This document shows, one piece after another, positions 725 through 35,766 of a DNA stretch of 38,392 bases. Position 1 is the stretch's first letter, and every line of letters begins with the position of its first letter. The stretch covers positions 1-38,392 of the IMG/VR virus record IMGVR_UViG_3300030108_001831. One strand, written 5' to 3'. Made by a program: the position numbers and the translations under genes. Below the pieces are notes generated by a model. That model saw only the letters and a list, made by a program, of their open reading frames with translations, searched no databases and was not told where the DNA came from. Source of the stretch: a virus.

Positions 725-903
725 TGGCAAAGAGTAGAGTTAATGAAGCTGGTAATTATACAAAGCCAGGAATGCGTAAAACATTATTTAATAGAATAAA
801 AGCAAGTGCTAGTTATGGTACAGCAGCAGGTAAATGGTCTGCTAGAAAAGCACAAGCATTAGCAAGACTTTATAAAAAACGTGGTGGAGGGTATCGTAAC
901 TAA
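724..903 (+). CDS. 59-aa basic protein
   Basis: ATG at 724 overlaps the upstream TAA, and the frame closes at 901-903. The product begins MAKSRVNEAGNYTKPGMRK, continues with KASASYGTAAGKWSARKAQALARL and ends YKKRGGGYRN. It is helical in the middle and highly basic. Small proteins of this look often sit beside DUF6321/DUF5872-like genes in marine phages; the role is unknown. Tight coupling on both sides and continuous basic coding support a real gene. Confidence 0.75.
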   Translation: MAKSRVNEAGNYTKPGMRKTLFNRIKASASYGTAAGKWSARKAQALARLYKKRGGGYRN

Positions 904-1142
904 TGGCGTTAGCTAAATCACAAACTAGTTTAAGAAAATGGGGCCAACAAAAGTGGCGTACTAAATCAGGAAAGAAATCATCTGTTACAGGTGAAAGATA
1001 TCTTCCTGAAGCTGCTATAAAGAATTTGTCTAGTGCTGAATATGCAGCTACTACAGCAAAGAAAAGAAAAGATAAAGCTAAAGGTAAACAATTTAGTAAA
1101 CAACCAAAAACAATAGCAAGTAAAACAAAGAGGTATAGATGA
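903..1142 (+). CDS. Basic protein, DUF5872-like
   Basis: A 79-residue protein with the pattern LRKWGQQKWRTKSGKKS, then TGERYLPEAAIKNLSSAEYAA, and a basic C-terminus (KGKQFSKQPKTIASKTKRYR). I recognise this from memory as the DUF5872 family, common in marine phages and some aquatic bacteria. Its biochemical function is not known; DNA or virion association is only suggested by the charge. The start overlaps the preceding stop (TAATG), and its end overlaps the next gene by 4 nt. Confidence 0.82.
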   Translation: MALAKSQTSLRKWGQQKWRTKSGKKSSVTGERYLPEAAIKNLSSAEYAATTAKKRKDKAKGKQFSKQPKTIASKTKRYR

Positions 1143-1360
1143 AATTAAAAAAAGTAAAAAGGAAAATAAAAAAAATAGGGAAGAAACTTATAAAAACAAC
1201 TCCTCAATATAAAATTAAACAAAAAATAAAAAAAACATTAATGAAAAAAATTTATTCTCCTAGCCAACTAGAAGCATTAAAAAATTTAAAAGAACTTGAA
1301 AAAGAAAAAAGACAACTTCAAAAAAGAGAAAGAACATTAATAAGGGAAGGTAAATTATGA
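1139..1360 (+). CDS. Lys-rich helical protein
   Basis: A 73-residue protein, extremely lysine rich in its first half (MKLKKVKRKIKKIGKKLIK), followed by a predicted amphipathic helix (LKELEKEKRQLQKRERTLI). It overlaps the genes on both sides by 4 nt and belongs to the same basic-protein chain. No family is recognised. A nucleic-acid-binding or membrane-active peptide would fit the composition, but nothing in the sequence decides. Confidence 0.7.
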   Translation: MKLKKVKRKIKKIGKKLIKTTPQYKIKQKIKKTLMKKIYSPSQLEALKNLKELEKEKRQLQKRERTLIREGKL

Positions 1361-1485
1361 AACATACTAAATTAAAAGGGAAGCAAAGTAAACTTGACGC
1401 TGATAAAGATGGAAAGATTACAGGTAAAGACTTCAAAATGTTAAGAAAGAAAAAGAAAACAGTAATGAATAAAGGAATGATGTAA
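1357..1485 (+). CDS. 42-aa EF-hand-like protein
   Basis: ATG at 1357 overlaps the preceding TGA (ATGA), and the frame ends at 1485, where the next ATG overlaps (TAATG). The product contains a canonical 12-residue EF-hand loop, DADKDGKITGKD, with Asp at loop positions 1, 3, 5 and 12, Gly at 6 and Ile at 8, followed by FKMLRKKKKK-type basic sequence. Such a loop normally binds calcium. A single EF-hand in a virion-module microprotein suggests calcium-dependent folding or attachment; that role is inference. Confidence 0.75.
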   Translation: MKHTKLKGKQSKLDADKDGKITGKDFKMLRKKKKTVMNKGMM

Positions 1486-1871
1486 TGGAATTAATGGCGA
1501 TGTTAGGTGGTGGATTAGCTGGGTTTATATTTAAACTTATAGGTACATTAGTACAAGCTCAACAAGCTAATATGCAAGCAATGATTACAAAGCAAGAAGC
1601 AGCTGATACAAGTGCTGATAAAGCAGCAGCTAGAGATGGAGGAACATGGGTACGAAGACTAATTGTTTGTGCCTGTTTGTTTGCTGTTGTTATTGTTCCA
1701 TTGATTATGGCATTCTCTGAAAATGGAATGACAGTATCTTCAGAGAAAGGATTTTGGATTTTTAAAAAAGAAGTGTGGACAGAACTGTCTGGTTTTGTTC
1801 TAATTAGTGAATTGAAAATTACGCTTTTAAGTATTATTTCATTTTATTTTGGAAGTTCTCAAATTAAATAA
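1485..1871 (+). CDS. Holin-like protein with three hydrophobic segments
   Basis: A 128-residue protein with hydrophobic stretches near residues 6-24 (LGGGLAGFIFKLIGTLV), 57-79 (RRLIVCACLFAVVIVPLIMAF) and 103-124 (VLISELKITLLSIISFYFG). A Gln/Ala-rich helix (VQAQQANMQAMITKQEAAD) lies between the first two. The layout resembles the three-TM holin family known from gene-transfer agents and phages. It would form the inner-membrane lesion that lets the GH24 lysozyme (16032) reach the cell wall. It is the last gene of the late operon before a terminator-like hairpin. Confidence 0.65.
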   Translation: MELMAMLGGGLAGFIFKLIGTLVQAQQANMQAMITKQEAADTSADKAAARDGGTWVRRLIVCACLFAVVIVPLIMAFSENGMTVSSEKGFWIFKKEVWTELSGFVLISELKITLLSIISFYFGSSQIK

Positions 1872-1925
1872 TTTAACTCCTGGTTAGAAGTTTTACCAAA
1901 GGTTTCATTACCTGTTCCATGTTGC

Positions 1926-1962
1926 GTCACTCAACATTAAAAACTTCAAAGTGACATTTTTT
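1926..1962 (+). terminator. Candidate terminator after the late operon
   Basis: A 6-bp stem GTCACT/AGTGAC (1926-1931 with 1950-1955) is followed by A and six T. The loop is long (18 nt), so the strength is uncertain. Position, 55 bp after the holin-like gene, fits the end of late transcription. Confidence 0.45.
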
Positions 1963-1988
1963 ATTCACATTTAATTAACAGGAGAGAA

Positions 1989-2147
1989 ATGTCTATGTAT
2001 CGTATTGTTCATAAAGAATCAGGAAAAGAAGCAACAGTTGAAGTAAAAGGTTTTGATAGATCAGAAATGATAAAACAAGCTAGCGAAAAAATAGGCATAG
2101 AAATAAGCCCCACCGAAGTAGGGCATATTCGCATACTACCTCTTTAG
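1989..2147 (+). CDS. 52-aa protein of unknown function
   Basis: ATG at 1989 follows CAGGAGAGAA, a good ribosome-binding site. The product starts MSMYRIVHKESGKEATVEVK and has a helix-forming middle (SEMIKQASEKIGIEI) and an end GHIRILPL, which suggests a small alpha/beta fold. No family is recognised. Its last 12 nt overlap the convergent YRG peptide gene on the other strand, and a minus-strand UUCG terminator hairpin lies inside its coding sequence (2107-2124), so its 3' part carries two signals. Confidence 0.6.
   Translation: MSMYRIVHKESGKEATVEVKGFDRSEMIKQASEKIGIEISPTEVGHIRILPL
2096..2124 (-). terminator. UUCG-loop terminator of the riboswitch cassette
   Basis: On the minus strand, GCCCTAC-TTCG-GTGGGGC forms a 7-bp stem (one G-U pair) closed by the very stable C(UUCG)G tetraloop, followed by TTATTTCT. 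It starts 12 nt after the stop of the 18-codon peptide. The T-tract is imperfect, but stem, loop and placement make an intrinsic terminator likely. Confidence 0.7.
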
Positions 2148-2192
2148 GATTTTTTTGTATGCTACTCCTCGATAAGTAAGGATAACTTCCAT
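2136..2192 (-). CDS. Riboswitch-controlled 18-aa YRG peptide
   Basis: The minus-strand frame encodes MEVILTYRGVAYKKILKR, preceded by GGGAGGTCTACA, a strong ribosome-binding site. The start LTYRGVxY matches the short YRG-type peptides (DUF4278-like in cyanobacteria) that characteristically lie downstream of the glutamine-binding Downstream-peptide riboswitch. The gene has its own promoter, aptamer and terminator. In cyanobacteria a glutamine riboswitch controls a small inhibitor of glutamine synthetase; whether this peptide acts on host nitrogen metabolism is inference. It is unusually short, so it could also be a trimmed leader peptide. Confidence 0.8.
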   Translation of the reverse strand: MEVILTYRGVAYKKILKR

Positions 2193-2212
2193 TGTAGACC
2201 TCCCAATGTTAG

Positions 2213-2259
2213 CGTTCCTTCAGTCACTTTGACCTACTTCCGACCATACAGGTTGAACG
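2213..2259 (-). promoter_or_regulatory. Glutamine riboswitch (Downstream-peptide / glnA type)
   Basis: On the minus strand the RNA runs CGTTCA, ACC-TGTAT-GGT, CGGAAGTAGG, GTCA-AAG-TGAC, then TGAAGGAACGC. P1 is CGTTC/GAACG, P2 is ACC/GGT and P3 is GTCA/TGAC. The joining segments CGGAAGTAGG and GAAGGAACG are the hallmark conserved sequences of glutamine aptamers. It lies 20 nt upstream of the peptide start and its ribosome-binding site, so ligand binding could control access to the site or transcription. The class is known from cyanobacteria, cyanophages and marine metagenomes. Confidence 0.92.
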
Positions 2260-2271
2260 AGTTATATATTC

Positions 2272-2300
2272 TGCATACTAAAAACACATAATGTCGTCAA
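2272..2300 (-). promoter_or_regulatory. Candidate promoter of the riboswitch cassette
   Basis: Minus-strand TTGACG (2300-2295), a 17-nt spacer, then TATGCA (2277-2272), with a second AT-rich TATATAAC just downstream. Initiation about 7 nt after the -10 would start the RNA only a few nucleotides before aptamer stem P1. The -35 is good and the -10 is weak. Confidence 0.5.
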
Positions 2301-2302
2301 TG

Positions 2303-2331
2303 AAAAAGCTAGTTTTTATCATGGAACTAGC
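2303..2331 (-). terminator. Terminator of the minus-strand early operon
   Basis: Minus-strand GCTAGTT / AACTAGC form a perfect 7-bp stem with a 10-nt loop, followed by TTTTT. It lies 18 bp after the last gene of the early operon (2349-2543) and just before the riboswitch promoter, so it separates the two transcription units. Confidence 0.7.
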
Positions 2332-2348
2332 AAACCATTGTGGGCAAA

Positions 2349-2543
2349 TTACATACCTTCTGCTTCTTGCGTAGGAACTTCAATAGTAGCTTTTTGTTTA
2401 GGCTTAACAAATACTTCGACATCAGAATTAAAAAACTTATTTAGTGTAGATTCAAATACACTAACTGTATCTTCTAGTGTCCAACTATGTTTATCCTTTA
2501 TACCTACCATTGTATCATCATCTTCTATTATTATTTTAATCAT
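2349..2543 (-). CDS. 64-aa acidic protein of unknown function
   Basis: The ATG at 2543 overlaps the stop of the phosphoesterase gene (ATGA). The product begins MIKIIIEDDDTMVGIKD and includes SWTLEDTVSVFESTLNKFF, ending in a PTQEAEGM tail. Beta-strand then helix character suggests a small compact domain. No family is recognised. It is the last gene before the operon terminator. The opposite-strand frame over the same bases is a shadow. Confidence 0.65.
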   Translation of the reverse strand: MIKIIIEDDDTMVGIKDKHSWTLEDTVSVFESTLNKFFNSDVEVFVKPKQKATIEVPTQEAEGM

Positions 2544-3361
2544 AGTTTCATTACCTCGTTAATACACGTTTCACCATTTATTATAACAGCACATCCTATT
2601 GCTGGTTTCTTTCCTCTTTTTGCATAATCAAACGCAAAACTAGAAAAATCTATACCACAACCTACTTGGCAACTAAATACTGATCTATTGATTCCAAACG
2701 ACCAATGAGTATATAGTTCTGTATGTCTGTGACCTTGTACACAAGAACTCATCTCATTTAAAGCTCTTGTTTTTGCAGTACCTGCTTCTCCATGAATATA
2801 TGATACATTGTCAATAGATACTTCATCTGTAAATATCCATCCTGGTGTTTCTAATACTTCTTTGTATGATTTAATCCAACGTCTAGGTACATTGCTTGTA
2901 ACTGATTTACGCATAACCATTCTATCGTGATTACCTATAGTTACATATGCTTCTGGAAAAGCCTTATTGTATGGTTTAAGTCTTTCAATAGCTAAGTCTA
3001 ATTCATCTCTACCAGACATACCATCAGGATCAGTTTCGTGATAAGATGTGTAATGATTGTCTATTACATCTCCTATAAATACAACAGTATCACAATCATA
3101 TTTTGCATACACGTTTATACAAAACTCTAGGTATCCATCTAAATCAAAAGGACAATGCAAATCTCCTACACATAATACTCTACGACCACCATTAATAACA
3201 CATTGATCTATTGGATTAGGTATTTTCTTTTTCTTATTTAGATAACGTAATGCACGTTTAACTGATGAAGCAGCAATACCATATTCCATAGCTGTTTCTG
3301 CTATACCAACTTGCTCTACTCTTGTAAGTATTTCTCTAGCCTTTTTTAGACTGTAAGCCAT
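2540..3361 (-). CDS. Calcineurin-like metallophosphoesterase with N-terminal HTH
   Basis: A 273-residue protein from ATG at 3361, chosen because TAGGAGGAGTT precedes it; the longer frame to 3397 lacks a ribosome-binding site. Residues about 1-45 look like a helix-turn-helix (GIAETAMEYGIAASSVKRAL). The metallophosphatase motifs follow in order: VGDLH (D-x-H), FIGDVIDNH (GDxxD), IGNHD, HGEAG and GHRH. Such enzymes hydrolyse phosphoesters with two metal ions; phage members may act on nucleic acids or nucleotides. The substrate is not visible. The HTH may guide it to DNA. Confidence 0.88.
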   Translation of the reverse strand: MAYSLKKAREILTRVEQVGIAETAMEYGIAASSVKRALRYLNKKKKIPNPIDQCVINGGRRVLCVGDLHCPFDLDGYLEFCINVYAKYDCDTVVFIGDVIDNHYTSYHETDPDGMSGRDELDLAIERLKPYNKAFPEAYVTIGNHDRMVMRKSVTSNVPRRWIKSYKEVLETPGWIFTDEVSIDNVSYIHGEAGTAKTRALNEMSSCVQGHRHTELYTHWSFGINRSVFSCQVGCGIDFSSFAFDYAKRGKKPAIGCAVIINGETCINEVMKL

Positions 3362-3448
3362 AACTCCTCCTATGTTACTAATTCCATAAACAAACAAAAC
3401 ATTATTGTTGCTAACATTATTAGAAATACATAATACATTAAATCGTAT

Positions 3449-4524: not shown

Positions 4525-4553
4525 ATACTTATATATTAATAGGTATTTGTCAA
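4525..4553 (-). promoter_or_regulatory. Promoter candidate for the SSB-like gene
   Basis: Minus-strand TTGACA (4553-4548) is a perfect -35 and sits inside the last codons of the methyltransferase gene. An AT-rich TATATAAGTAT stretch follows where a -10 should lie, though its exact register is unclear. It could raise SSB expression above the rest of the operon. Confidence 0.5.
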
Positions 4554-5822
4554 CCTATTAAACAAGGTAACAAAAGCTTTTGTTGCTGTCTGTGGCACTA
4601 CTCCATTTCCGAGAAGTCTAAGTCTGTCCACCCTACTTGAAGACCCATTAGTTGTTCTACCCAACTTGGGTTTAACTCTAGGCTCTTCCCATTCGTGTTG
4701 TTCTTGATTTGGTCTCCTTGGTATCCTTTCTTGCATCCATATATCATTTTTGGTAGTGACATATCTCGGAATGTCTTTGTTCCTGGTGTGTCCTTCCAAT
4801 CTCTCGCTGTTGGTGTCGGAAATGTTTCTACTGCATCCCTTAACTTGGCCCCAAACGTCTGATTGCTTTTGTGACGTTTGCTCTTGAATGTCCCATCTTC
4901 CACTATCGTTTCTATCCGACCCCCCTCTGCATCCGATGTCCTCGGTGTCGGATAATTCATCGCATCCTTGTATGCTTGAACTGATTCCGGATTTACTTGT
5001 TCTCTCAGATTGCTTGGCTTCTCTCTGTTCTTTCTGATTCCTTGGGCCTGCTTCATTGAAGCATTGTAGTCCTTTGGTGGTAACATATCCATTGTGTTTG
5101 GCGTGGCCCAATTCTTGTCGTTCACTTCTGCTTGTTGTGCTAGACTTAAAGAATTTCTTTTCAGTTGGCTTGCATCCATTTGTCTTGTTATCTGACTCGT
5201 TGTTGGAGTTGACCAATTCTTTGCTTGTTGTGCTAGTGGTATTCCTCCCTTCCCATTCGGTCTTGTCGAGTCTGTTGCACTCGCTCTCGGAGTAGCCCAT
5301 GATGAAGACTCTTTTTCTCTGATGTGGGAAGCCGACTTCACTCGCTGAGAATACTCCTGCCGTTGCTCTGTAACCCAATCTTTCCAAGTCTTTAAGCACA
5401 TAGTGGAGAACTGATTCTCCTTCTGCTGTTTTGCTTGAGATAATTCCTTCAACGTTTTCGAGGAAAACAATTCTTGGTCGACATTCTTCGATTCCTCTAC
5501 TGAAGTGTGGATAGAGATGTCTAGGGTCTTCAACTCCTTTTTTATGTCCTGCACAACTGAAGGGTTGACAAGGGAAGCCTCCTGATAAGATGTCCACTCT
5601 TCCACAAAACTCTTTGTATGGGAAGGTCTTAACATCCGAGTAGATAGGTGCTGCATCCAACTGTTCGCTTTCCATCTTCGAAACCAAGTTTGCGATTGCG
5701 AAGGCTTCGATCTCCACATAAGCGATTGTTCGCAAGCTTGGTAAAACTCGTTCAAGTCCGATTCCGATTCCATCATAACCTGCACAGAGTGATAGGTGTG
5801 TAATTGCTTTGGTAGTATCCAC
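4536..5822 (-). CDS. DNA (cytosine-5) methyltransferase
   Basis: 428 residues from GTG at 5822. Motif I (LCAGYDGIGIGLE, residues 12-24), motif IV with catalytic Cys85 (GGFPCQPFS), motif VI (LENVEG, Glu122), motif VIII (QRKRVF, about 169-173) and the C-terminal LLGNGVVPQTA (motif X region) are all intact. Residues about 180-370, the target-recognition region, are S/T/N/Q/R/E-rich, with five phrases like LSDTED, LVNSNNE and ISDTNSE. GTG is preferred to an ATG at 5870 because GGGAGGAG lies just upstream and the longer start lies inside helicase coding. The enzyme would methylate phage or host DNA. Nearly all of it is co-encoded with another frame. Confidence 0.93.
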   Translation of the reverse strand: MDTTKAITHLSLCAGYDGIGIGLERVLPSLRTIAYVEIEAFAIANLVSKMESEQLDAAPIYSDVKTFPYKEFCGRVDILSGGFPCQPFSCAGHKKGVEDPRHLYPHFSRGIEECRPRIVFLENVEGIISSKTAEGESVLHYVLKDLERLGYRATAGVFSASEVGFPHQRKRVFIMGYSESECNRLDKTEWEGRNTTSTTSKELVNSNNESDNKTNGCKPTEKKFFKSSTTSRSERQELGHAKHNGYVTTKGLQCFNEAGPRNQKEQREAKQSERTSKSGISSSIQGCDELSDTEDIGCRGGSDRNDSGRWDIQEQTSQKQSDVWGQVKGCSRNISDTNSERLEGHTRNKDIPRYVTTKNDIWMQERIPRRPNQEQHEWEEPRVKPKLGRTTNGSSSRVDRLRLLGNGVVPQTATKAFVTLFNRLTNTY

Positions 5823-5824
5823 AT
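4598..5824 (-). CDS. Overlapping-frame protein with TP repeats, inside the methyltransferase gene
   Basis: A 408-codon frame, one register off the methyltransferase over essentially the same DNA, starting at ATG 5824 with GGGAGGAG upstream and overlapping the helicase stop (TAATG). Five repeats [WYF]-x-TP occur at residues 176, 204, 239, 291 and 335 (WATPRAS, NWSTPTTS, NWATPNT, YPTPRTSD, FPTPTARDW). The end has LNPSWVEQLMGLQVGWTDL. I recall this TP-x-x-RD plus NPxWVExLMGxPxGWT signature from proteins annotated near phage methyltransferases; their function is unknown. So long a second frame in an AT-rich genome is very unlikely by chance. It may modulate the methyltransferase (inference). Confidence 0.7.
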   Translation of the reverse strand: MWILPKQLHTYHSVQVMMESESDLNEFYQACEQSLMWRSKPSQSQTWFRRWKANSWMQHLSTRMLRPSHTKSFVEEWTSYQEASLVNPSVVQDIKKELKTLDISIHTSVEESKNVDQELFSSKTLKELSQAKQQKENQFSTMCLKTWKDWVTEQRQEYSQRVKSASHIREKESSSWATPRASATDSTRPNGKGGIPLAQQAKNWSTPTTSQITRQMDASQLKRNSLSLAQQAEVNDKNWATPNTMDMLPPKDYNASMKQAQGIRKNREKPSNLREQVNPESVQAYKDAMNYPTPRTSDAEGGRIETIVEDGTFKSKRHKSNQTFGAKLRDAVETFPTPTARDWKDTPGTKTFRDMSLPKMIYGCKKGYQGDQIKNNTNGKSLELNPSWVEQLMGLQVGWTDLDFSEME

Positions 5825-5833
5825 TACTCCTCC
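5820..5833 (-). promoter_or_regulatory. Shared ribosome-binding site and ATGTG double start
   Basis: Minus-strand GGGAGGAGTAATGTG combines four signals: the last codons and TAA stop of the helicase, a strong Shine-Dalgarno, ATG (5824) for the TP-repeat frame and GTG (5822) for the methyltransferase. The two start codons overlap by one base and could compete for the same ribosome. Confidence 0.75.
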
Positions 5834-7095
5834 CAACTTTTGTGTTTAAATGTTTGTGTTGATTTATCAAAATCTAAAACTGCAACTGGAGATAATCCAT
5901 TACGATTCTTCTGCCATTTACATACAACTGTATCATCACTCGTTTCGTGATTCTGATGAATTGTTTTACCATTTACATCAATACCTTCATAAGGAACTGT
6001 ATGTAAATAAAGTATTACATCACATAAGTTTTCTATATTTCTACTATAAGCTACAAGTCCTTCAGCAGATGGATGTGCTAATAAAAATATTGGTATCTTA
6101 ATATCATTTCGTAAATCTACTAACTGTTGAATAAAGTAATCATACATAGCAGTTCTGTTTGTAAAGTTTCTACCACCATCATTTATACAAAGAAGATTAT
6201 CAATCATAATACAATCAGCACCATTTTTCTTTTCTGATAGGGCCCATGCTCGTATTTCCATAATATTCATAGACCCATCTCTAATATTTAAATTAAGGTC
6301 TTTTAGTTTTTGTGAAGCATTTAAAACTTTTTCTCTTTCATTATCGGTCATAAATCCTCTAGTCCTAATGGTGTACGTATTAACTTGACCAAGATGTGCT
6401 ATAAATCTACCTACTAATTCTTGCTTAATCATTTCAATAGATGCAAAGCTACACTTCATACCCTTGCTATGTAAGTGACATATATATTGTAGAAGCCAGG
6501 CTGTCTTACCTGTACTTCTAGGCGCATGGATAATACATACTTCACTACTTAATCTTGATAATTTAAAATTCCAATCTTCAAAGGGCCATTCTAAATGACC
6601 TGTGTTTCCTTCTTCTGCATCTTTAACCCATTCATCACATATCTTATCCATACTGCTATCTTGATTATTTATTGAGCTTCTTACTAAACTACTCATAACT
6701 CTATCTGCTGAGCTTTGCCCATCGTATGCTTTTATTAATCCTGATTCATACACTTCGATTTCTTTTCTTAAATCATATAATTCTAATAATCTATCTCTGT
6801 ATGATTTACTATGACTAGGTACAATCGTGCTATCTTGTAGTTTTAATAAATATTCTTCACCACCACATTGATGTAATATTTTTTTATCATTTAAATAATT
6901 TCTAACAGTTAATGCATCCATGTCCATATTTTGTACATACATTTCTCTTAATGCATCCCATAAATATTTATGTCTTTCTGTATAAAAATGTTTGCTTGAT
7001 AATGATATACAATTTTTCATTCTTGATGGATCAAGTAATACTGACCCTATAACACCTGATTCGCTTGCTAAACAATTAGGTTTTTGTTTACTCAT
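5824..7095 (-). CDS. DnaB-type replicative helicase
   Basis: A 423-residue protein. The N-terminal domain resembles DnaB_N (ESGVIGSVLLDPSRM, then HKYLWDALREMY and LTVRNYLNDKK). The RecA-like domain has Walker A near residue 190 (APRSTGKTAW), Walker B (CIMIDNLL), a motif-3-like FLLAHPS and an arginine-finger-like KWQKNRNG. It unwinds DNA ahead of the polymerase. No primase domain is present, so host DnaG is probably used. The start overlaps the initiator-like gene (ATGA) and the stop overlaps the ATG of the TP-repeat frame. Confidence 0.92.
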   Translation of the reverse strand: MSKQKPNCLASESGVIGSVLLDPSRMKNCISLSSKHFYTERHKYLWDALREMYVQNMDMDALTVRNYLNDKKILHQCGGEEYLLKLQDSTIVPSHSKSYRDRLLELYDLRKEIEVYESGLIKAYDGQSSADRVMSSLVRSSINNQDSSMDKICDEWVKDAEEGNTGHLEWPFEDWNFKLSRLSSEVCIIHAPRSTGKTAWLLQYICHLHSKGMKCSFASIEMIKQELVGRFIAHLGQVNTYTIRTRGFMTDNEREKVLNASQKLKDLNLNIRDGSMNIMEIRAWALSEKKNGADCIMIDNLLCINDGGRNFTNRTAMYDYFIQQLVDLRNDIKIPIFLLAHPSAEGLVAYSRNIENLCDVILYLHTVPYEGIDVNGKTIHQNHETSDDTVVCKWQKNRNGLSPVAVLDFDKSTQTFKHKSWEE

Positions 7096-26550: not shown

Positions 26551-29500
26551 ATGAAAATGAACGATAAGCAGTATACTCTGCAAGAAACTACAGTTCGTGA
26601 TATAGGAGTAAATCCTTTTTTCGAAAATTTAGATGTAGATTTTGTACCTAGTTTAAAAGAAAAATCTGATCGAGAATACTTTAGAAGTGATCAAGGTAAA
26701 CTTACTCAAGCTCGCATTAAAACTAGAAATATGTGGCGAGAAACTTATGGAGGAAAAAGTTTTTATAGAGATTATAATAGAGAAATGCGTGATGATGAAG
26801 TTGATGCTGCTCTTGTTCAATATTTTAAATTAAATCCTGATACTCCTATTGATTACTATAAAATTCAAGAAGATTTAAGAAGGCAAAGAGATTTATATTA
26901 CACCGGTGATTTTGAAACCTTAACTGGTGGAGAAATGTTTAGAGGAGCTTTAGGTGCATTTATGGAGTGGGGTGATAATGTTAAAAGAGAAGCCTTGTCT
27001 CTTGGAATTGATTTAATGAGCACTGGTCAAGCACTTCGTACAAAACAAATAGGTCAATCTATTCCTATGGCTACTTTTCAACAAATGCCTTTTCCTGGTA
27101 CTACTGTTCCTAAAGAAAAAAGAGAAGAAGAAGCAAAAAATATAAAAGATGAAGCAACTTTCTTAAAATTAAAGGTTGATCAACTAGAAGGGTTATTAGA
27201 AAAATTTCCTAGTTTTAAAGATGATTTAGAAGAATTAAGAGCAAAAGCAGGTGATGAAGAAGCAAATTGGTTTTTATCATCTTTTGCTGCTACTTTAGCA
27301 AATGCACCTAACTTAGTAGCAGGAGGATTAGGCGCAAGATTATTTGGTAAAAGTGGATGGATTTTTTCTATGGCTGGTATGTATGCTCAAGAAAAAGATT
27401 CAGCTTTTCAGTATTTTAAAGAAATATATGATATATCTTCATCAACAACTTTAGAAGAAATTAAAAAAGACCCTACGCTTTCAGAAAGATATAATCAAGC
27501 TACTAAGCTTGCTAGAGCATATGGATTACTTTCAGCAGGTATAGAGTATATCCAAACAGGTGGTTTTTTAAGAATGGCAGGTATTAAAAAAGGTGCTAGA
27601 CCAAAAACTTTATCTGAATTATTTAAAAATAAACCTACTAGAGAATTTATTACTAATTTACAAGGTCATATAAAAAGAACTACAGGTATGGCAATTGAAA
27701 ATATTGTAGAAGAAGTATCACAAGGTATTTTATATAATCAATTTGCTAACATGGCAATTACTGATGCTTTTTTAAATTATGATATAGATAAACGTGATGA
27801 AATGACACCACTTTTTAAAGATTGGGAAGAAAATTCAAGAAGTGCTTTGCAGTTAACAACCATACTTGCTCCTGTAGGTGCTTTTAAAAATTTTATGGTG
27901 CAAAAAAACTATAGGTCTAAAACAGTTCAAAGATTAAAACAACAAGGTTTTACTCATATGGAAGCATCAGAGTTTGCATTAGATCTAGCTAATGCTGCAG
28001 GTAATAAAGAAGAATTTAAAAAAGTTGCTGCAAGAATACAAAGTCAATTTGAATCTAAAGAAGCTAGTAAAGTAATATTAGAAAAAAATAAATTAAGACA
28101 AACTTTAGAAGATGATTCTGGTCTTAAAACTATGGATGGTAGTGTTTTTACTGATCAAGAGTTTGATGCTTTAGCTACAACTTATTCTACTGAAGAGCTT
28201 ATTAAAATGATTCCTAATAAAGAATATCAAGATTTATTTATTGCTGCTGTAAATGGAGATATGGAAGCTAGAATAGAATATAATAAATCAATTCAAAATA
28301 TTGTTAATATAAATAATAACAAAAATAAAAAAAGAAAAGAAACAGAAATACCACCAAGAATACAAAAAGTAATTACAAAAATAGAAGATGGAGAGCTTGA
28401 TAAAAGTCTTGATATTGAAGAAGGTGAAACTATTGAACAAGCAAGAGAAAAAGAAATAAATAGAATTTTAGAAAAAGAAGGATTAAAACCTAGAGAACAA
28501 GAAACGACTGAAGAAGCTGCTGAAGAAACTACAGAAGAAACAATACCTGATCAGCCAACAGAAGTAATGCCTGAAGATACATCTTATAATGATGTAAAAA
28601 CAGAAGCTAAAAAATTAGGTATTCCTATAAAAGGTAAAAAAGCCGAACTAATAAATAAAATAAACAGAGAACGTGCTAAACGTGGTGCAGAACAACAAGC
28701 TAAACAATTTGAAGATACACCTACTAAATATCAAGAAAAATTTCAACGCAAGATGGCTCAAGTTATGCAAAACTCAACTAGAGCATTACGCAAAATAGCA
28801 CCTACTGTAAAAATATTATATGCTAAATCTGAAGAAGATTATTTAAGAATAGTAGGAAGAAGCTCTAGAGGTGCATATGTAGCAAGTGAAAATACTGTTT
28901 ATTTAAATCCTTCAAAAGCAACTCAAGGAACTGTAGTACATGAAACTGTACACGCTATACTACAATATAAACTTGGTAATGATAAAAACATACAAGCAGT
29001 AACAAATGTATTACTTAATGATATTTTAAAAGATTCTATTTCTTTTGCAGCAAAAATAAGAATTAGAAGCTACATGGATAAATATATAAAACAATTAAAT
29101 TTTACTGAAGAAGCAGCCTCTGAAGAAGGTGTATCAGAGTTAGCAGCAATACTTCTTGATAATATTAATTATGTTCAACCATCTTTAAAAGCAAGAATAA
29201 TTGATTTTGTATCTAGAATATTTGGAATAGATTTTAAAAATGATGAAATGAGAGCAATAAAAATGTTACAAGCTATTGCTTCTAAAACTACTAAAGGTGA
29301 AATGATTTTAGAATCAGATGTATCTATATTAGATGATATAGCTAAATCAACAATACCTGGATATTCTAATGAAAGTCAAACAGCAGAAGCTAACAGTAAA
29401 TTTCAATTAAGTCATACTGATCCTATAACAGGTTTTACTTATGAATATGACCTTCCTGATGGTGAGTTTCAAGAATTAGAAGATAATGGTAATGTTACAA

Positions 29501-32500
29501 AAGATCAAAGTATAACTGATTTTGTAGATAAATTTATGGCTGTTACTTATCCTGATAGTATGTTTACAGGAACAATTACAAATGAAAATGGAGATATATT
29601 AGTTGAAGGATCAGGTGGTATAAACTTTGTTTTAAAATTTCATAAAGGTAATTATGTGTGGGCTGCAGGAAAAAAATCTCTTGCTCAGGGATTATTGAAT
29701 AGATTAAATGAATCATTTGAAGATAATAATGGAGTAGCATATTTAGCATTAGCATTAGGAAGTAGAGAAAAACTTTTAAGTAACACACAAGCAAATAAAG
29801 GTGTAATAAATATTATACAAGATTTTATTAACAATAAAAAAATATCAGTAACTCAAGAACAGTTTGATAAAATATTAAAAGATGTTTATGGAACAAATAA
29901 TATTTTAGAAATATATGAAAAGCTATTACCAACAAATACCGAATTTTCACAAAGAAAAGCATTTGCATTAAAGATAGCAGGAGAAATTGCAAAAATAGCA
30001 AAAGATTCAGAAATAGAAGCAATTTTAGAAACTGCTAATATTCCTCAAACACCTTTAAAATTTCAAGAAAAAGCAAAACCCAAAGAACAATCAAAAGCTA
30101 AATTAGTAAGATATTTTGTTGAAGTAATGACAGAGCCTTTTCTTACTAATACAGGAATAACAGATGAAGATCAAATGATAGATAAAAAAGAAATAGGTCA
30201 AATATATGCTGTTATTGAAATAAGAAAAGGAGCAACTAAGGCTGCACTTTCAATACAAGATGTTACAAATCAACCTACAGTAAAACAAAATGAATCGTAT
30301 CCTTATATTATTCAAGGAGATCAAGATATTAAAACTAAACTTCATATATTAAAAGATCGTTATCCTATACATGAAGTATTTGTAGGTAAAGATGGTGAAG
30401 TAATAGAAAAAAATTTACCACAAAAACAAGTTCCTAATTTTGGTATATCTAAATCAACACTTAGAGTAGTAAATCCTAAATTTCAATTAGAAGATACACA
30501 AGATCAATATCAATTAAATTTTGATGTAATACCACAAGTTAAAGATGCATTAAGACAATACTTTGATGGTAAAATTTCATACGAAGAGTTTTTAAGAATA
30601 CAAGATAAGTTTGATCCTATAAGGAGATTTGAAGTTCTTCCTGAATTACCAACTAATCAAGAAATGAAAGATGTATTAGATGAAGGTAAAAAAGAAAAAG
30701 TAGGCATAAAGCCAAAAGATGGAGAACAAGTTTCATTACGTTTAGATATACCTGCTTATACAAGAAAAGACAAAGATGGTAAAAGAATTGGTAAATATGT
30801 AGTTACTATTCATAAAAAAGGAATACAAGGAGTAATAGGATATACATCAACTGGTAGGGCCAAAAATGTAAGAATGACTTCACCAAAATTAAGAACTGCT
30901 CAAATAGCTCTTAAAGAAACTCCTAAAGGGCCTGTGTCTGCTATTAATGGACAATATGTTGAAGCTACAGATGAACAAAATTATAAAGATGCTCAAGAGT
31001 TAATTAATGACCCAAATTGGGTACAAATAGGATTTAATCCATTTAGACGTTCTTTCTTTTATGTTAGAGAAGGTGCATTAAGAGGAAATCCTGTTGTAGC
31101 TGCTGATGAAGTAATTCAAATTGGTGGATTAGTTTTAGCTAAAAATATAACAATGGCTTCGGTTGAAAACTTTAAGTTTAACGAAAAACAAAAAGAACAA
31201 TTAGAAATTTTAAGAGATGATGCTAAATTCCAATTAGATGAAACAAAACCTAAAATGTTTTTTGGTATGGCTGGTATAGGCACTATAGAAATGGCATTTG
31301 CTAATACCGAGTTTAGAAACTTGTTTAATATAAAACCTGCTGAATATAATCAATCTATTGTTGATGTTCATAATGCTATACATGGTACAGGCTATGCTTC
31401 ACAAGACTTTATGGACCTTGATCCTAATGAGTTTAAAGATTATGTATATTGGCACGCATCATTTCCTTGCCAATGTTTTAGTGCATCTAATCCAAATGGA
31501 TTAAAAGCTAATGGTGAGCCTAAACAAGGTAATTTAACAAAAGCTGATTTTGATAAAGAAATGCAGTTAGCAAAACATGGTGCTAAAATTATTACTACAT
31601 CTAAACCATTAAATGTAACAATAGAAAACGTACCTAATTATCAAGGATCAGATCAATATGCTGTATTAAGAAAAGCATTACAAGATGCTGGATATACAAT
31701 AAGAGAAGAAGTTGTAAAGGCACAAGATTATGGTGCTATATCAAGTAGAAAAAGATTTATTGTACAAGCTACGTTAAGAAAAGATAAAGATGGTAATCCT
31801 GTTTTACCACCTGTTCCTGAACAACAAGGTTTTGGTGATTGGTATAAAGCAATAGAGAAGTTTATAAAAGATGCACCTCATTATGATACACTACAAGAAA
31901 AAGTAAAAACTAAACCAGCTAAATACATTCAAGAGTTACTTGAAAAAATAGACAGAAAACATAGAGATGCTCGCAATAAAGATATTATCTTTACTGAAGA
32001 TATTGCATATATAGCTACAGGAGATGAAAGTAATTTTTCACCACAAGGTTTACCAGGGCCTGCAATACAAGCAGGATTAAGATCAGATAGAGATATGTCT
32101 AAAGGCTCTAAAAAGATTCCAAAACTTTTACTACCTGTAAGAAAACTAGTACAAGAACAAGGTGTAAATGCTGTTGCTGAAATGTATGGTGTTCATCCTA
32201 GTTTAGTAAAAGAAGTATATGACTCACCATTCCCTTTTATTATTAAAAGATTAAGTCAACAAATGTTATTAGCATATATGGGATTAGACCCTAATTTAAA
32301 TTTAGGATTAGATAAACTTACACCAAGTCAAATAACACAATTACAAATACTAAAAGCTGGATTAGGTAACGGAGTACATGAAAAAACAACTATGTCACAT
32401 TTAAAACCTATGATGCAAAACTTTGATAATGCACCTAAATTTCAATTATCTGATGATGAGATTGATGCTTTATTAAATCAAATAGATAAAGAAATAGAAG

Positions 32501-35500
32501 CAGAAGTAAACAAAGAATACGATTTAGCTGCTAAAGGTGCAGAAAAAATAGGAGAACAAGATTATACATCTGTAGATGAGTTATATGGAGACCTTGTTGA
32601 TTTAGAAGAAGAAGAAGAATTAGAAGGTAAAACAAGATTAACTTTAAGAGATGCTGCTAGATTATTTGATAGTTTTAATTTAGGTACTTTTTCAAAAGAA
32701 AAACAAGTTAATACATTTACAGGGTTTGCTAAAGCAGCAGATATAAATGCATCTATAGAAGATTTATTATCATTAGCAGATTTAGTCTTAACAGGCGACA
32801 CTCCAATACTAACAGATATTCAACACTATCAAATGATATTAGGTGTTACTCAATTAAAAAATGAATTAGAAGAAATAAGAAACTCTGAAGAAACAGGAAC
32901 AATAATAAATTTAGATGCTGATACTAGAGGATCATATGAAACAAAATTAGAACAAATGGAAAAATTAGTTCGTGCAGACACAGCATCAGGTAGTCGTACA
33001 GGATCAGCATTAAGAGCTAGGTCGGTAGCAGCAAATAATGATTATTCATATTATGGTGTTATAAGAAGAGCTACTAAAATGAAACGTGGTATGCCTTTAA
33101 CTAAAGAAGAAATTTCTAAACTAGCAGAAGTTCAAGCTAAATATGAAAAAACTAGAAGAGAAGTTAATAAATTAAGAAGTAAGATTGAAAAGTTAACAAA
33201 CGATGAAGATATATCATCAGCACAAAGTTTCTTTGATCAAGTGTTAGTAGAAAAAGAAAAATTTCCTAAAGGTAAAATAAACAAACTAATAAAAGAAATT
33301 AAACAAACTCTTAAAAATAAAGGTTATAATTTAGAAAGTAGTGGTAAGTTTCAGTTAGGTTTTGGTATAGATGCTAAATTAGCTAAAGATATAAGAGCTT
33401 ATGCTAAGTTATTAATTTTAGAAGCAGATGTAAAAACTTTAAATGAAGTAGTTGCTTTAATAAAATCTGATCCTGAATTTATGGATGTTTCTGATGCTGA
33501 TATATATGGCTCAATATCTGGAAGAATACAAAGAGTACCTCGTACAAAATCAGAAGCACAAAAAAGATTACAAGCTCTTACATTACAAGCTGATTTACAA
33601 GTGCAAATAAACAATGCATTAGTAGGAGTATTTGATCCTAAACGTGCTACTAAACCACCATTAGAAGAAACTAAAGATTTAAGAAAGAAACTTAATAAAC
33701 TAAAAGAACTTGCACATGATGCTGCAACAGAAGATGAAAGAGCAGATAAAATATTAACACAAGTTCGTAACATAGAAGAAATGATAGATGGTTTATATAG
33801 ACCAATAAAAAAACCAACTAAAATAAAATCTGATAAAATACAAGCAGCATTAGATAAGTTATATACTGCTAGGGCAGAGTTAAGAGCGCAAGATAGATTA
33901 TTATTATTACAAACTATTTTAGAATATGGTGAGCCACCTAAATTTACTAGACAAAAACGTGACCCACAATCTGATAGATTAGAAAAGTTAAGAACAGACA
34001 TTAAGTTATTAGAAAAACAAATACGAGAACGTAAAAAAGTAGAAGCTGATAAAGAAAGACAAAAAAGAATTAAGGCTGAACAAGAACAAAAACTACAAGA
34101 TTTAAGTAAACAAATATTAGGATGGTATAGAGATAATGTAGGGCCTGCTTCTAAACCTGAATTAAATGAAACACAAAAAGGTATTAAAGAAGCTAGAAGA
34201 TTACAAAAACAACAAGATAGAATAGGAGAACTTGTTGAAATAATAGCTACAGGTAAACTGCCACCTAAAAATAAAAAAGTTGAAATAGCTGATCCTATGG
34301 GCTTTTTAAAAACTATAGATACTTTAAAAGAAGAATTAAAAAATCAAGAGTGGTATAGACAAATACAACAAAATAAATACGAAGAAAAACGTATAGAACA
34401 AGTAAAACAAAAAATAAAAGAACAAGAAGAGCTTATAAAATCTGGAGACTTTACTGATTATCTAACACCTAAAGAAAAGAAAGAAATAGATAATCCTCAA
34501 TTAAAAGCATTGTTATTACAACAAGCAACAAATACTAGAATAATTCGTAAAACAATAAATGAGTTAAGACCAAGAACTAGAATGGAATTAGCAGGTGATA
34601 TAGCTAGTTTACCTCGTGCATTTATGGCAACTGCTGATATGTCAGGAACATTTAGACAAGCATTTTTAATGGGTGTTAGAGACCCAAAAGCGTTTGCAAA
34701 AGCATTTAAGTATGCTGCTAAAGCTGCTGTTGATCCAAAGTTTGCTGAAGAAGTTATGTTTATTTTAGAAAGTGATACTAATGCAGCAAGAAGATTAGAA
34801 TCAGGTTTATTCTTTTCAAATCTTGATACTGGTATGATTGATTCTGAAGAATCATTTAGTTCTAATATGTTACAAAAACTTTATAAAATACCTGGTCTAG
34901 GTAAGCCATTATCTGTTGTTATGGGCGCATCTGAAAGAAATATGGTAGTAATGTTAAATGTATTAAGAGCAGCTGCTTTTGATAAATATTGTGAAGCAGT
35001 TCCTAACGCTACTTCTAACGAGTTAAAAACTTTTGCTCATTTTATAAATACAATGAGTGGTCGTGGTGATTTAGGAAAACTTGAGCCTGCAGCAGATGGT
35101 TTATCTTATTTATTTTTCTCACCTAGATTTGCTGCATCAAGATTAATGGTTATACCAGAATCTGTTGGTATTGGTGTTAGTCCACTTGTTAAGAAAGATA
35201 AATTAGGTCAATTAAAAACAAAACAAGATAGAGAAGGTGACGTTCGATTAGCAAAAGAAGTTGCTAAATATTGGGGATCATTAGCAGTAACAACAGCTAT
35301 AGTATTTGGATTAGCTGCTTTAGCAGGAGCTGAAGTAGGAGATGAGCCTGATGAGCCTGATTTTGGTAAATTAATTTTTGGTAATATGAGATTAGATATT
35401 TTTGCTGGTGTTGGTCAGCCTATGAGATTGTTAGCTAAAGCTTTAGATAGTGCATATAAAACATCTACAGGACAAGAGGTAAAGCTTGATTTATGGAAAG

Positions 35501-35766
35501 AAACACAAAATACATTAATTAAATATAAAGTAACTCCTTGGGTATCAGGTGTTATTGAATTACTTCAAGGTAAAGATTTTGTATCAAGACAAGATAAAAG
35601 TGCTATGAAAGTTCTTCTTCAAAGATTAGCACCAATAACATTTTCAAACTTATATGAAAATATATATGAAAGAGATGCAGAAGGATATCAAATATTTACA
35701 GAGTTTGCAGCAGAGTTCTTTGGACTATCTGTCTATACTCAGACAAGACGTGGTGGTAGTTTATAG
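26551..35766 (+). CDS. Giant polyvalent internal virion protein: SAP, zincin and C5-methyltransferase domains
   Basis: 3,071 residues, a quarter of the genome, after AGAGGATAATTTTT. In order: helical N-terminal part (FMEWGDNVKREALSLGID); SAP-like DNA-binding motif about 677-709; zinc peptidase motif HETVH at 797-801 with a downstream Glu-rich segment; undefined domains about 950-1310; a polyvalent-associated domain about 1310-1558 (ADEVIQIGGLVLAKN); C5-methyltransferase about 1568-1960 with FGMAGIGTIEM, Cys1640 in FPCQCFS, Glu1692 in IENV and SRKRF at 1732-1736; coiled coils; and a C-terminal phage domain (about 2671-3071) with a hydrophobic segment near 2906-2930. KFQL recurs at 950, 1310, 1559, 1963 and 2266. 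It takes the T7 gp16 position and is likely ejected with DNA. Confidence 0.88.
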   Translation: MKMNDKQYTLQETTVRDIGVNPFFENLDVDFVPSLKEKSDREYFRSDQGKLTQARIKTRNMWRETYGGKSFYRDYNREMRDDEVDAALVQYFKLNPDTPIDYYKIQEDLRRQRDLYYTGDFETLTGGEMFRGALGAFMEWGDNVKREALSLGIDLMSTGQALRTKQIGQSIPMATFQQMPFPGTTVPKEKREEEAKNIKDEATFLKLKVDQLEGLLEKFPSFKDDLEELRAKAGDEEANWFLSSFAATLANAPNLVAGGLGARLFGKSGWIFSMAGMYAQEKDSAFQYFKEIYDISSSTTLEEIKKDPTLSERYNQATKLARAYGLLSAGIEYIQTGGFLRMAGIKKGARPKTLSELFKNKPTREFITNLQGHIKRTTGMAIENIVEEVSQGILYNQFANMAITDAFLNYDIDKRDEMTPLFKDWEENSRSALQLTTILAPVGAFKNFMVQKNYRSKTVQRLKQQGFTHMEASEFALDLANAAGNKEEFKKVAARIQSQFESKEASKVILEKNKLRQTLEDDSGLKTMDGSVFTDQEFDALATTYSTEELIKMIPNKEYQDLFIAAVNGDMEARIEYNKSIQNIVNINNNKNKKRKETEIPPRIQKVITKIEDGELDKSLDIEEGETIEQAREKEINRILEKEGLKPREQETTEEAAEETTEETIPDQPTEVMPEDTSYNDVKTEAKKLGIPIKGKKAELINKINRERAKRGAEQQAKQFEDTPTKYQEKFQRKMAQVMQNSTRALRKIAPTVKILYAKSEEDYLRIVGRSSRGAYVASENTVYLNPSKATQGTVVHETVHAILQYKLGNDKNIQAVTNVLLNDILKDSISFAAKIRIRSYMDKYIKQLNFTEEAASEEGVSELAAILLDNINYVQPSLKARIIDFVSRIFGIDFKNDEMRAIKMLQAIASKTTKGEMILESDVSILDDIAKSTIPGYSNESQTAEANSKFQLSHTDPITGFTYEYDLPDGEFQELEDNGNVTKDQSITDFVDKFMAVTYPDSMFTGTITNENGDILVEGSGGINFVLKFHKGNYVWAAGKKSLAQGLLNRLNESFEDNNGVAYLALALGSREKLLSNTQANKGVINIIQDFINNKKISVTQEQFDKILKDVYGTNNILEIYEKLLPTNTEFSQRKAFALKIAGEIAKIAKDSEIEAILETANIPQTPLKFQEKAKPKEQSKAKLVRYFVEVMTEPFLTNTGITDEDQMIDKKEIGQIYAVIEIRKGATKAALSIQDVTNQPTVKQNESYPYIIQGDQDIKTKLHILKDRYPIHEVFVGKDGEVIEKNLPQKQVPNFGISKSTLRVVNPKFQLEDTQDQYQLNFDVIPQVKDALRQYFDGKISYEEFLRIQDKFDPIRRFEVLPELPTNQEMKDVLDEGKKEKVGIKPKDGEQVSLRLDIPAYTRKDKDGKRIGKYVVTIHKKGIQGVIGYTSTGRAKNVRMTSPKLRTAQIALKETPKGPVSAINGQYVEATDEQNYKDAQELINDPNWVQIGFNPFRRSFFYVREGALRGNPVVAADEVIQIGGLVLAKNITMASVENFKFNEKQKEQLEILRDDAKFQLDETKPKMFFGMAGIGTIEMAFANTEFRNLFNIKPAEYNQSIVDVHNAIHGTGYASQDFMDLDPNEFKDYVYWHASFPCQCFSASNPNGLKANGEPKQGNLTKADFDKEMQLAKHGAKIITTSKPLNVTIENVPNYQGSDQYAVLRKALQDAGYTIREEVVKAQDYGAISSRKRFIVQATLRKDKDGNPVLPPVPEQQGFGDWYKAIEKFIKDAPHYDTLQEKVKTKPAKYIQELLEKIDRKHRDARNKDIIFTEDIAYIATGDESNFSPQGLPGPAIQAGLRSDRDMSKGSKKIPKLLLPVRKLVQEQGVNAVAEMYGVHPSLVKEVYDSPFPFIIKRLSQQMLLAYMGLDPNLNLGLDKLTPSQITQLQILKAGLGNGVHEKTTMSHLKPMMQNFDNAPKFQLSDDEIDALLNQIDKEIEAEVNKEYDLAAKGAEKIGEQDYTSVDELYGDLVDLEEEEELEGKTRLTLRDAARLFDSFNLGTFSKEKQVNTFTGFAKAADINASIEDLLSLADLVLTGDTPILTDIQHYQMILGVTQLKNELEEIRNSEETGTIINLDADTRGSYETKLEQMEKLVRADTASGSRTGSALRARSVAANNDYSYYGVIRRATKMKRGMPLTKEEISKLAEVQAKYEKTRREVNKLRSKIEKLTNDEDISSAQSFFDQVLVEKEKFPKGKINKLIKEIKQTLKNKGYNLESSGKFQLGFGIDAKLAKDIRAYAKLLILEADVKTLNEVVALIKSDPEFMDVSDADIYGSISGRIQRVPRTKSEAQKRLQALTLQADLQVQINNALVGVFDPKRATKPPLEETKDLRKKLNKLKELAHDAATEDERADKILTQVRNIEEMIDGLYRPIKKPTKIKSDKIQAALDKLYTARAELRAQDRLLLLQTILEYGEPPKFTRQKRDPQSDRLEKLRTDIKLLEKQIRERKKVEADKERQKRIKAEQEQKLQDLSKQILGWYRDNVGPASKPELNETQKGIKEARRLQKQQDRIGELVEIIATGKLPPKNKKVEIADPMGFLKTIDTLKEELKNQEWYRQIQQNKYEEKRIEQVKQKIKEQEELIKSGDFTDYLTPKEKKEIDNPQLKALLLQQATNTRIIRKTINELRPRTRMELAGDIASLPRAFMATADMSGTFRQAFLMGVRDPKAFAKAFKYAAKAAVDPKFAEEVMFILESDTNAARRLESGLFFSNLDTGMIDSEESFSSNMLQKLYKIPGLGKPLSVVMGASERNMVVMLNVLRAAAFDKYCEAVPNATSNELKTFAHFINTMSGRGDLGKLEPAADGLSYLFFSPRFAASRLMVIPESVGIGVSPLVKKDKLGQLKTKQDREGDVRLAKEVAKYWGSLAVTTAIVFGLAALAGAEVGDEPDEPDFGKLIFGNMRLDIFAGVGQPMRLLAKALDSAYKTSTGQEVKLDLWKETQNTLIKYKVTPWVSGVIELLQGKDFVSRQDKSAMKVLLQRLAPITFSNLYENIYERDAEGYQIFTEFAAEFFGLSVYTQTRRGGSL

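Follow-up and report, generated by a model that had tools for sequence, protein, structure and literature searches.

C5 cytosine methyltransferases made of two polypeptides are an already known kind of enzyme, represented by M.AquI and M.EcoHK31I. M.EaeI is a two-polypeptide enzyme like M.EcoHK31I, whose small gene is nested within the large one in a different reading frame. The single-chain methyltransferases of Bacillus phages SPR, phi3T and H2 have tandem recognition domains between motifs VIII and IX (cited e.g. in PMC8936443). The large polypeptide of M.EcoHK31I carries motifs I-VIII and X, together with the predicted recognition domain, and the small polypeptide carries motif IX (PMC3404938). 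In M.AquI the alpha and beta chains are separated after motif VIII, before the distal half, and beta contains motifs IX and X (PMC3404938). Overlapping frames are also present in actinophage methylases that harbor the ShiLan element, an out-of-frame HNH insertion (PMC11855218). We describe here a phage locus in which one stretch of DNA read in two frames appears to encode two proteins that build one DNA-methylating enzyme. No description of such an overlapping phage pair was found in the literature searched.

The window analysed is the whole 38,392-nt stretch of record IMGVR_UViG_3300030108_001831. A preliminary description had pointed to a 428-aa C5 methyltransferase and a 408-codon frame on the same minus-strand DNA, and both frames are indeed present. 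Frame A starts with GTG at 5822 and ends with a stop at 4536; frame B starts with ATG at 5824, has its stop at 4598 and is read in the +1 phase of A, the first codon position of B being the second of A. The two starts overlap as ATGTG, that of B lying 2 nt before that of A, and this double start is kept in 71 of 115 distinct start regions. Their shared Shine-Dalgarno sits within the 3' end of the upstream gene, which codes for a DnaB-like helicase (phrog_19) and has its TAA stop at 5824-5826. The elements of the locus are:

4536..5822, minus strand: frame A, a 428-aa C5 methyltransferase bearing motifs I-VIII plus X; the proposed catalytic subunit
4598..5824, minus strand: frame B, 408 aa, PHROG 1008 family; proposed target-recognition/motif IX subunit
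5827..5834, minus strand: Shine-Dalgarno GGGAGGAG, common to A and B, assigned by sequence

Frame A has a C5 cytosine DNA methyltransferase fold with motifs I, IV (PCQ), VI (ENV) and VIII, and matches Pfam DNA_methylase (PF00145) at 8.6e-40 and PHROG 363 at 7.4e-56. Motif X (RLRLLGNGVVPQ) is carried by the same polypeptide, in a C-terminal helix that is predicted with confidence. The motifs of A are:

5754..5798, minus strand: motif I region HLSLCAGYDGIGIGL, by sequence
5556..5582, minus strand: motif IV GGFPCQPFS with the catalytic Cys, by sequence
5442..5468, minus strand: motif VI VFLENVEGI, by sequence
5295..5324, minus strand: motif VIII HQRKRVFIMG; the first TP cassette of B starts over its end
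4572..4634, minus strand: motif X RVDRLRLLGNGVVPQTATKAF, by sequence and predicted structure

The AlphaFold model of A alone is confident at residues 1-178 and at the motif X helix, and Foldseek aligned about 175 columns of it to M.HhaI (327 residues; 1e-13). A small domain with motif IX was not found in the A polypeptide, either by motif search or in the model, where residues 224-357 are disordered. Frame A is predicted to consist of the large catalytic domain plus the motif X helix, without the small domain. The window has a second C5-methyltransferase domain (PF00145, 1.6e-17) at residues 1574-1794 of a 3071-aa ORF (26551-35766, plus strand); its motifs share a single frame, and its +1 frame is closed.

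Frame B is not a novel type of protein; it matches PHROG 1008 (1e-22). PHROG 1008 is labelled DNA methyltransferase and has 329 positions; its N-terminal part corresponds to frame B over motifs IV-VIII and not to a catalytic domain. Two proteins annotated as second methyltransferases, gp75 of mycobacteriophage Stasia and BN12_63 of Paenibacillus phage BN12, belong to the same family, with matches of 1e-74 or better. B alone is not matched by Pfam DNA_methylase. Its recognizable elements are the following:

5279..5299, minus strand: cassette start WATPRAS, by sequence
5198..5218, minus strand: cassette start NWSTPTT, by sequence
5093..5113, minus strand: cassette start NWATPNT, cassette type NTMD-LPP...NLREQV
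4934..4954, minus strand: cassette start YPTPRTS, cassette type RTSDAEGG...KLRDAV
4802..4822, minus strand: cassette start FPTPTAR, by sequence
4619..4675, minus strand: C-terminal LNPSWVEQLMGLQVGWTDL, motif IX-like, by sequence

The five W/Y/F-x-TP repeats and the C-terminal LNPSWVEQLMGLQVGWTDL had been noticed in the preliminary description and all lie where it placed them, the repeats coinciding as claimed with the phrases MGYSES, LVNSNN, LGHAKH, LSDTED and ISDTNS of A. Its assignment of the A region under the C-terminal motif of B has to be corrected: the overlap is with VKPKLGRTTNGSSSRVDRLR, just upstream of LLGNGVVPQ and not on it. The C-terminal consensus of B, LNPxWVExLMGxPxGW, is motif-IX-like. 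Between motifs VIII and IX, B is made of 1-9 W-x-TP cassettes per locus, each of about 30-50 residues. Clustering with strict coverage grouped 334 cassettes from 90 loci into 34 clusters of at least three members, single-linkage having joined most cassettes, and most of these clusters occupy differing positions in different phages. A cassette of marine phages, TARDWKDTxGM...RLDQLPRAV, is found again in Salmonella phage epsilon15 and in a Klebsiella phage. The cassettes are probably exchangeable target-recognition modules and, by analogy, one cassette could correspond to one recognition module. The AlphaFold model of B alone is of low confidence (mean pLDDT 59); the exceptions are a few helices, among which residues 141-170 reach very high confidence, and the segment with motif IX. 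Foldseek gave no structural match for the B model, and this speaks neither for nor against a two-subunit enzyme. Loci of the Stasia type lack the long N-terminal part of B, indicating a lineage-specific role.

Stops and substitutions tell how the two frames are constrained. When protein A is kept fixed and its synonymous codons are resampled with the codon usage of the phage's own genes, a mean of 26.8 B stops is expected, and none of 2000 trials gave fewer than 17. The observed number is zero, and the third frame of the locus has 31. Over motifs I-VIII of 118 sequences, with 22,698 opportunities, not one A-synonymous change that makes a stop in B is seen. Changes of this type do occur in three neighbouring control genes, at a pooled 68/702, which is close to the rate of other silent changes. 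For transversions at A position 1 that are nonsynonymous in A, the rate in the same region is 0.0104 if B is also changed versus 0.0309 if the change is B-silent, a depletion of about 3-fold that is absent from the control genes; all these substitution figures are effect sizes and not p-values, with non-independent pairs and few sequences for the control genes. Stop avoidance and the transversion-controlled test were used instead of plain codon-position ratios, which over I-VIII are uninformative alone because the neighbouring genes have similar ones. Over I-VIII, A position 3 (B position 2) changes no more slowly than in the control genes, so that the amino acids of B are only moderately constrained there. 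In the TP region the fastest site is B position 3, with 0.259 versus 0.116 and 0.113 per codon (80-90% identity), and the same wobble is seen in an A-based alignment, showing that B is the main coding frame of this region. A is dominant over I-VIII and B over the variable region, with both frames constrained. The test of selection in each frame that the preliminary description proposed gives purifying selection in both, on stop avoidance, transversions and TP-region wobble. As far as sequence can tell, B is a second, functional coding frame, most likely translated as a protein of its own.

Homologous loci were collected from both sides. A viral set of 80 loci was picked by the motif I-VIII part of A only, without selection for B. 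In all 80 the B frame is long and keeps its phase, the third frame being closed by stops; LNPxWVExLMGxP is found in B in most of them and a motif IX-like sequence was never found at the proper place in A. A set of 80 loci from bacterial genomes was picked by B and has A upstream, with B in A+1, in 79 cases and in the same frame in none. The proposal of a widespread overlapping pair is borne out by both sets. In locus L154 the top-scoring A is an adjacent tandem copy, and the A that overlaps its B is visible in translation; this Pseudodesulfovibrio genome bin has two differing A/B methyltransferase pairs in tandem (1575-3369). L188 is a remnant with the last B cassettes, motif IX and, in the frame of A, motif X; by eye, a phosphoadenosine-reductase-like sequence stands in place of the catalytic part. 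One uncultured Roseovarius genome contains the A/B locus five times (L158-L162), with the same match scores for each copy.

The preliminary description held that loci with B commonly broken and A intact would speak against a functional second frame, and the opposite is seen. Frame A is full of stops between motifs VIII and X in four of 80 loci (L073, L118, L120, L134), in which B is open through motif IX, indicating that the variable region of A is dispensable where that of B is not. In L118, L120, L157, L134 and L073, A is split into a I-VIII piece and a same-frame downstream X piece, B being uninterrupted.

The motifs of the two frames complement each other. Canonical C5 methyltransferases have motif IX in frame with I-VIII and a broken +1 frame. 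In ten bacterial genomes, the near-full-length one-frame DNA_methylase matches have, where evaluable, 3-15 stops in +1, whereas matches limited to profile positions 1-165 have a +1 frame without stops over IV-VIII, with TP cassettes and motif IX in it. Motif IX of the canonical loci found here reads LTPRECARLMGF or LTPQECSRLMGF, its counterpart in B LNPEWVEWLMGF. In the clade of the window, I-VIII and usually also X are in A and motif IX is in B. In L079, L084, L097, L114, L142, L181 and mycobacteriophage Stasia, frame A terminates early and motif X follows IX within B; most of a further group of loci have motif X in A as GNGQVP (by eye). With IX and X on a single chain, 26-33 residues usually separate MG from GN (48 in L181), compared to 20-26 in canonical enzymes. 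When they are on two chains the median distance is 12.7 codons, too short for one chain. If A is joined to B by a +1 shift in L097, the fused chain reads as a complete enzyme and its Pfam match grows from profile positions 3-170 to 3-318 of 324, for a gain of only about 5 bits. The C-terminal block of B looks like motif IX of a C5 methyltransferase, an assignment based on a short motif, its position and its spacing; the complementarity of the frames, the mobile motif X and the stop-riddled A frames facing an open B make it more than a mere resemblance. In L114 an HNH endonuclease ORF (2364-2933; PHROG 1271/2340) is inserted in the third frame between the IX and X regions of B, resembling the ShiLan element of actinophage methylases (PMC11855218).

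We privilege the hypothesis, to which we give a probability of roughly 0.84, that the locus codes for one two-subunit C5 methyltransferase, with A as the catalytic subunit and B as the target-recognition and motif IX subunit. Both proteins would be translated from one Shine-Dalgarno via the overlapping ATG and GTG starts. A would provide S-adenosylmethionine binding and catalysis through its large domain, with motifs I-VIII, and its C-terminal X helix, a flexible stretch replacing the canonical small domain and joining these two parts. B would provide the missing small domain, a row of cassettes followed by motif IX, and its helical N-terminal part (first 170 residues) probably docks on A, which is a guess. 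B would bind A and supply target recognition. The assembled enzyme would methylate the phage DNA, presumably to evade host restriction. The overlap would keep A and B in step, and the cassette region could be a mere flexible linker in A. A partner, an inhibitor or a specificity factor had been envisaged for the second product; the motif IX-like C-terminus of B favours a specificity subunit over an inhibitor. The view that this product is unexplained holds only in part, given the precedent of M.EcoHK31I with motif IX on its small polypeptide (PMC3404938).

Three other explanations of frame B were weighed against the two-subunit enzyme. B could be expressed and yet act outside the methyltransferase, as an independent overprinted accessory protein such as a regulator or an inhibitor of host restriction or of A. 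Its constraint over the full length in the clade of the window and its predicted helical N-terminal part would suit such a protein. However, B without A was not found: A accompanies it in 79 of the 80 B-selected loci, always in the A+1 arrangement, across a dozen or more phyla. The end of B also resembles the motif IX that A lacks, and B includes motif X where A is devoid of it. We find this explanation improbable. The chance that B is an accident, a +1 frame left open by the amino-acid and codon composition of C5 methyltransferases, is negligible. Shuffling the codons of A itself does lower the expectation to about 9 B stops in all, fewer than with genome usage, and the codon usage of A is biased against B stops; but even under this most lenient shuffle zero stops has P<=0.004 per segment. 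Canonical methyltransferases have broken +1 frames, including the domain of the 3071-aa ORF in the same phage with 37 stops, and the stop avoidance and substitution patterns among homologues also stand against an accident. The accidental open frame is ruled out by the stop counts, the avoidance of A-silent stops and the closed +1 frames of canonical enzymes.

A single chain made by programmed frameshifting, in which A would shift +1 after I-VIII into B to reach the cassettes and IX, is very improbable in our judgement. A hypothetical A-B fusion does read as a complete enzyme, and Stasia, L097, L084 and L181 need one +1 shift to have I-VIII, IX and X in order. In the clade of the window, however, a conserved ATG belongs to B itself, and the frame stays open over some 170 codons ahead of any useful shift site, an openness that is superfluous for a frameshift. 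Reaching the motif X of A would require a second, backward shift, leaving about 13 residues between IX and X versus 20-33, and inspection by eye revealed no conserved slippery site. The conserved start of B, its upstream openness and the too-short link from IX to X make frameshifting unlikely as the normal route in this clade.

Read as a two-subunit enzyme, the locus resembles M.EcoHK31I as described, with I-VIII and X on A and a IX-like motif on B, the comparison being one of descriptions. It is also like M.EcoHK31I in that the small gene overlaps the large one in another frame. It differs in that the variable cassette region appears to be encoded by B, given the A stops in four loci and the wobble at B position 3; a recognition domain that is not on the large polypeptide A is opposite to the prediction for M.EcoHK31I (PMC3404938). 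Compared to the small polypeptide of that enzyme, B is far longer; it begins 2 nt before A and has 1-9 exchangeable cassettes, and genes of the window type are phage-borne and very widespread. Stasia gp76/gp75, L084, L097 and L181 resemble the M.AquI split with an overlap in addition. The window is unlike M.AquI since X stays on A and the overlap of the genes is near-complete. The cassettes of B follow the layout of SPR, phi3T and H2, as tandem exchangeable modules between VIII and IX, but these phage enzymes are a single chain in one frame, whereas here the array is on a separate predicted polypeptide in an overlapping frame. The ShiLan element is an inserted selfish endonuclease of some phages, in contrast to B, which belongs to the gene in all homologues seen. 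What is new here is the breadth of the arrangement, the variable region in B, the row of cassettes, the mobility of X between frames and the shared double start.

Relatives of frame B are present in 539 phage records when Stasia is the query, in 192 for epsilon15 and in 71 for BN12. Named carriers include gene 58 of Escherichia phage N15 and Basel phage Bas70, and the B-selected genomes span about a dozen or more bacterial phyla. Judging from these sequence matches, the overlapping arrangement is present in hundreds of phages and prophages, named phages alone numbering in the hundreds, and usually just one of the genes is annotated. In Escherichia phage K1ind1 the nested +1 gene inside the C-specific methylase is annotated Mte8-like. 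This 'Mte8-like protein' of K1 coliphages (L249) corresponds to the nested B frame, annotated without function or link to a methyltransferase; it has been listed among the genes by which better therapeutic phages differ from poorer ones (PMC5582158). The nearest named phage, Phage C75C1 (L001), has amidoligase and gamma-glutamyl cyclotransferase genes upstream of its replication genes (740-3421).

A broader proposal, to which we give even odds, is that a dominant architecture of phage C5 methyltransferases is a fully overlapping two-gene enzyme, with recognition placed in the cassette row of the second frame, and that phages change or add specificities by swapping frame-B cassettes, both frames being kept readable. 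Among the phage and prophage genes that carry the annotation of a complete cytosine methyltransferase, hundreds appear to be only half an enzyme, the other half being in a second frame that is mostly unannotated or named as a separate methyltransferase. If true, this would explain failed heterologous expression and would affect annotation and specificity prediction in REBASE, PHROG and Pfam; the pair would be among the broadest and oldest same-strand overlapping genes in prokaryotes. N15 gene 58, epsilon15, Basel phage Bas70, the Paenibacillus phages and the mycobacteriophages are available models. It also becomes testable whether phages evolve their methylation specificity by exchanging cassettes while both coding frames constrain the sequence.
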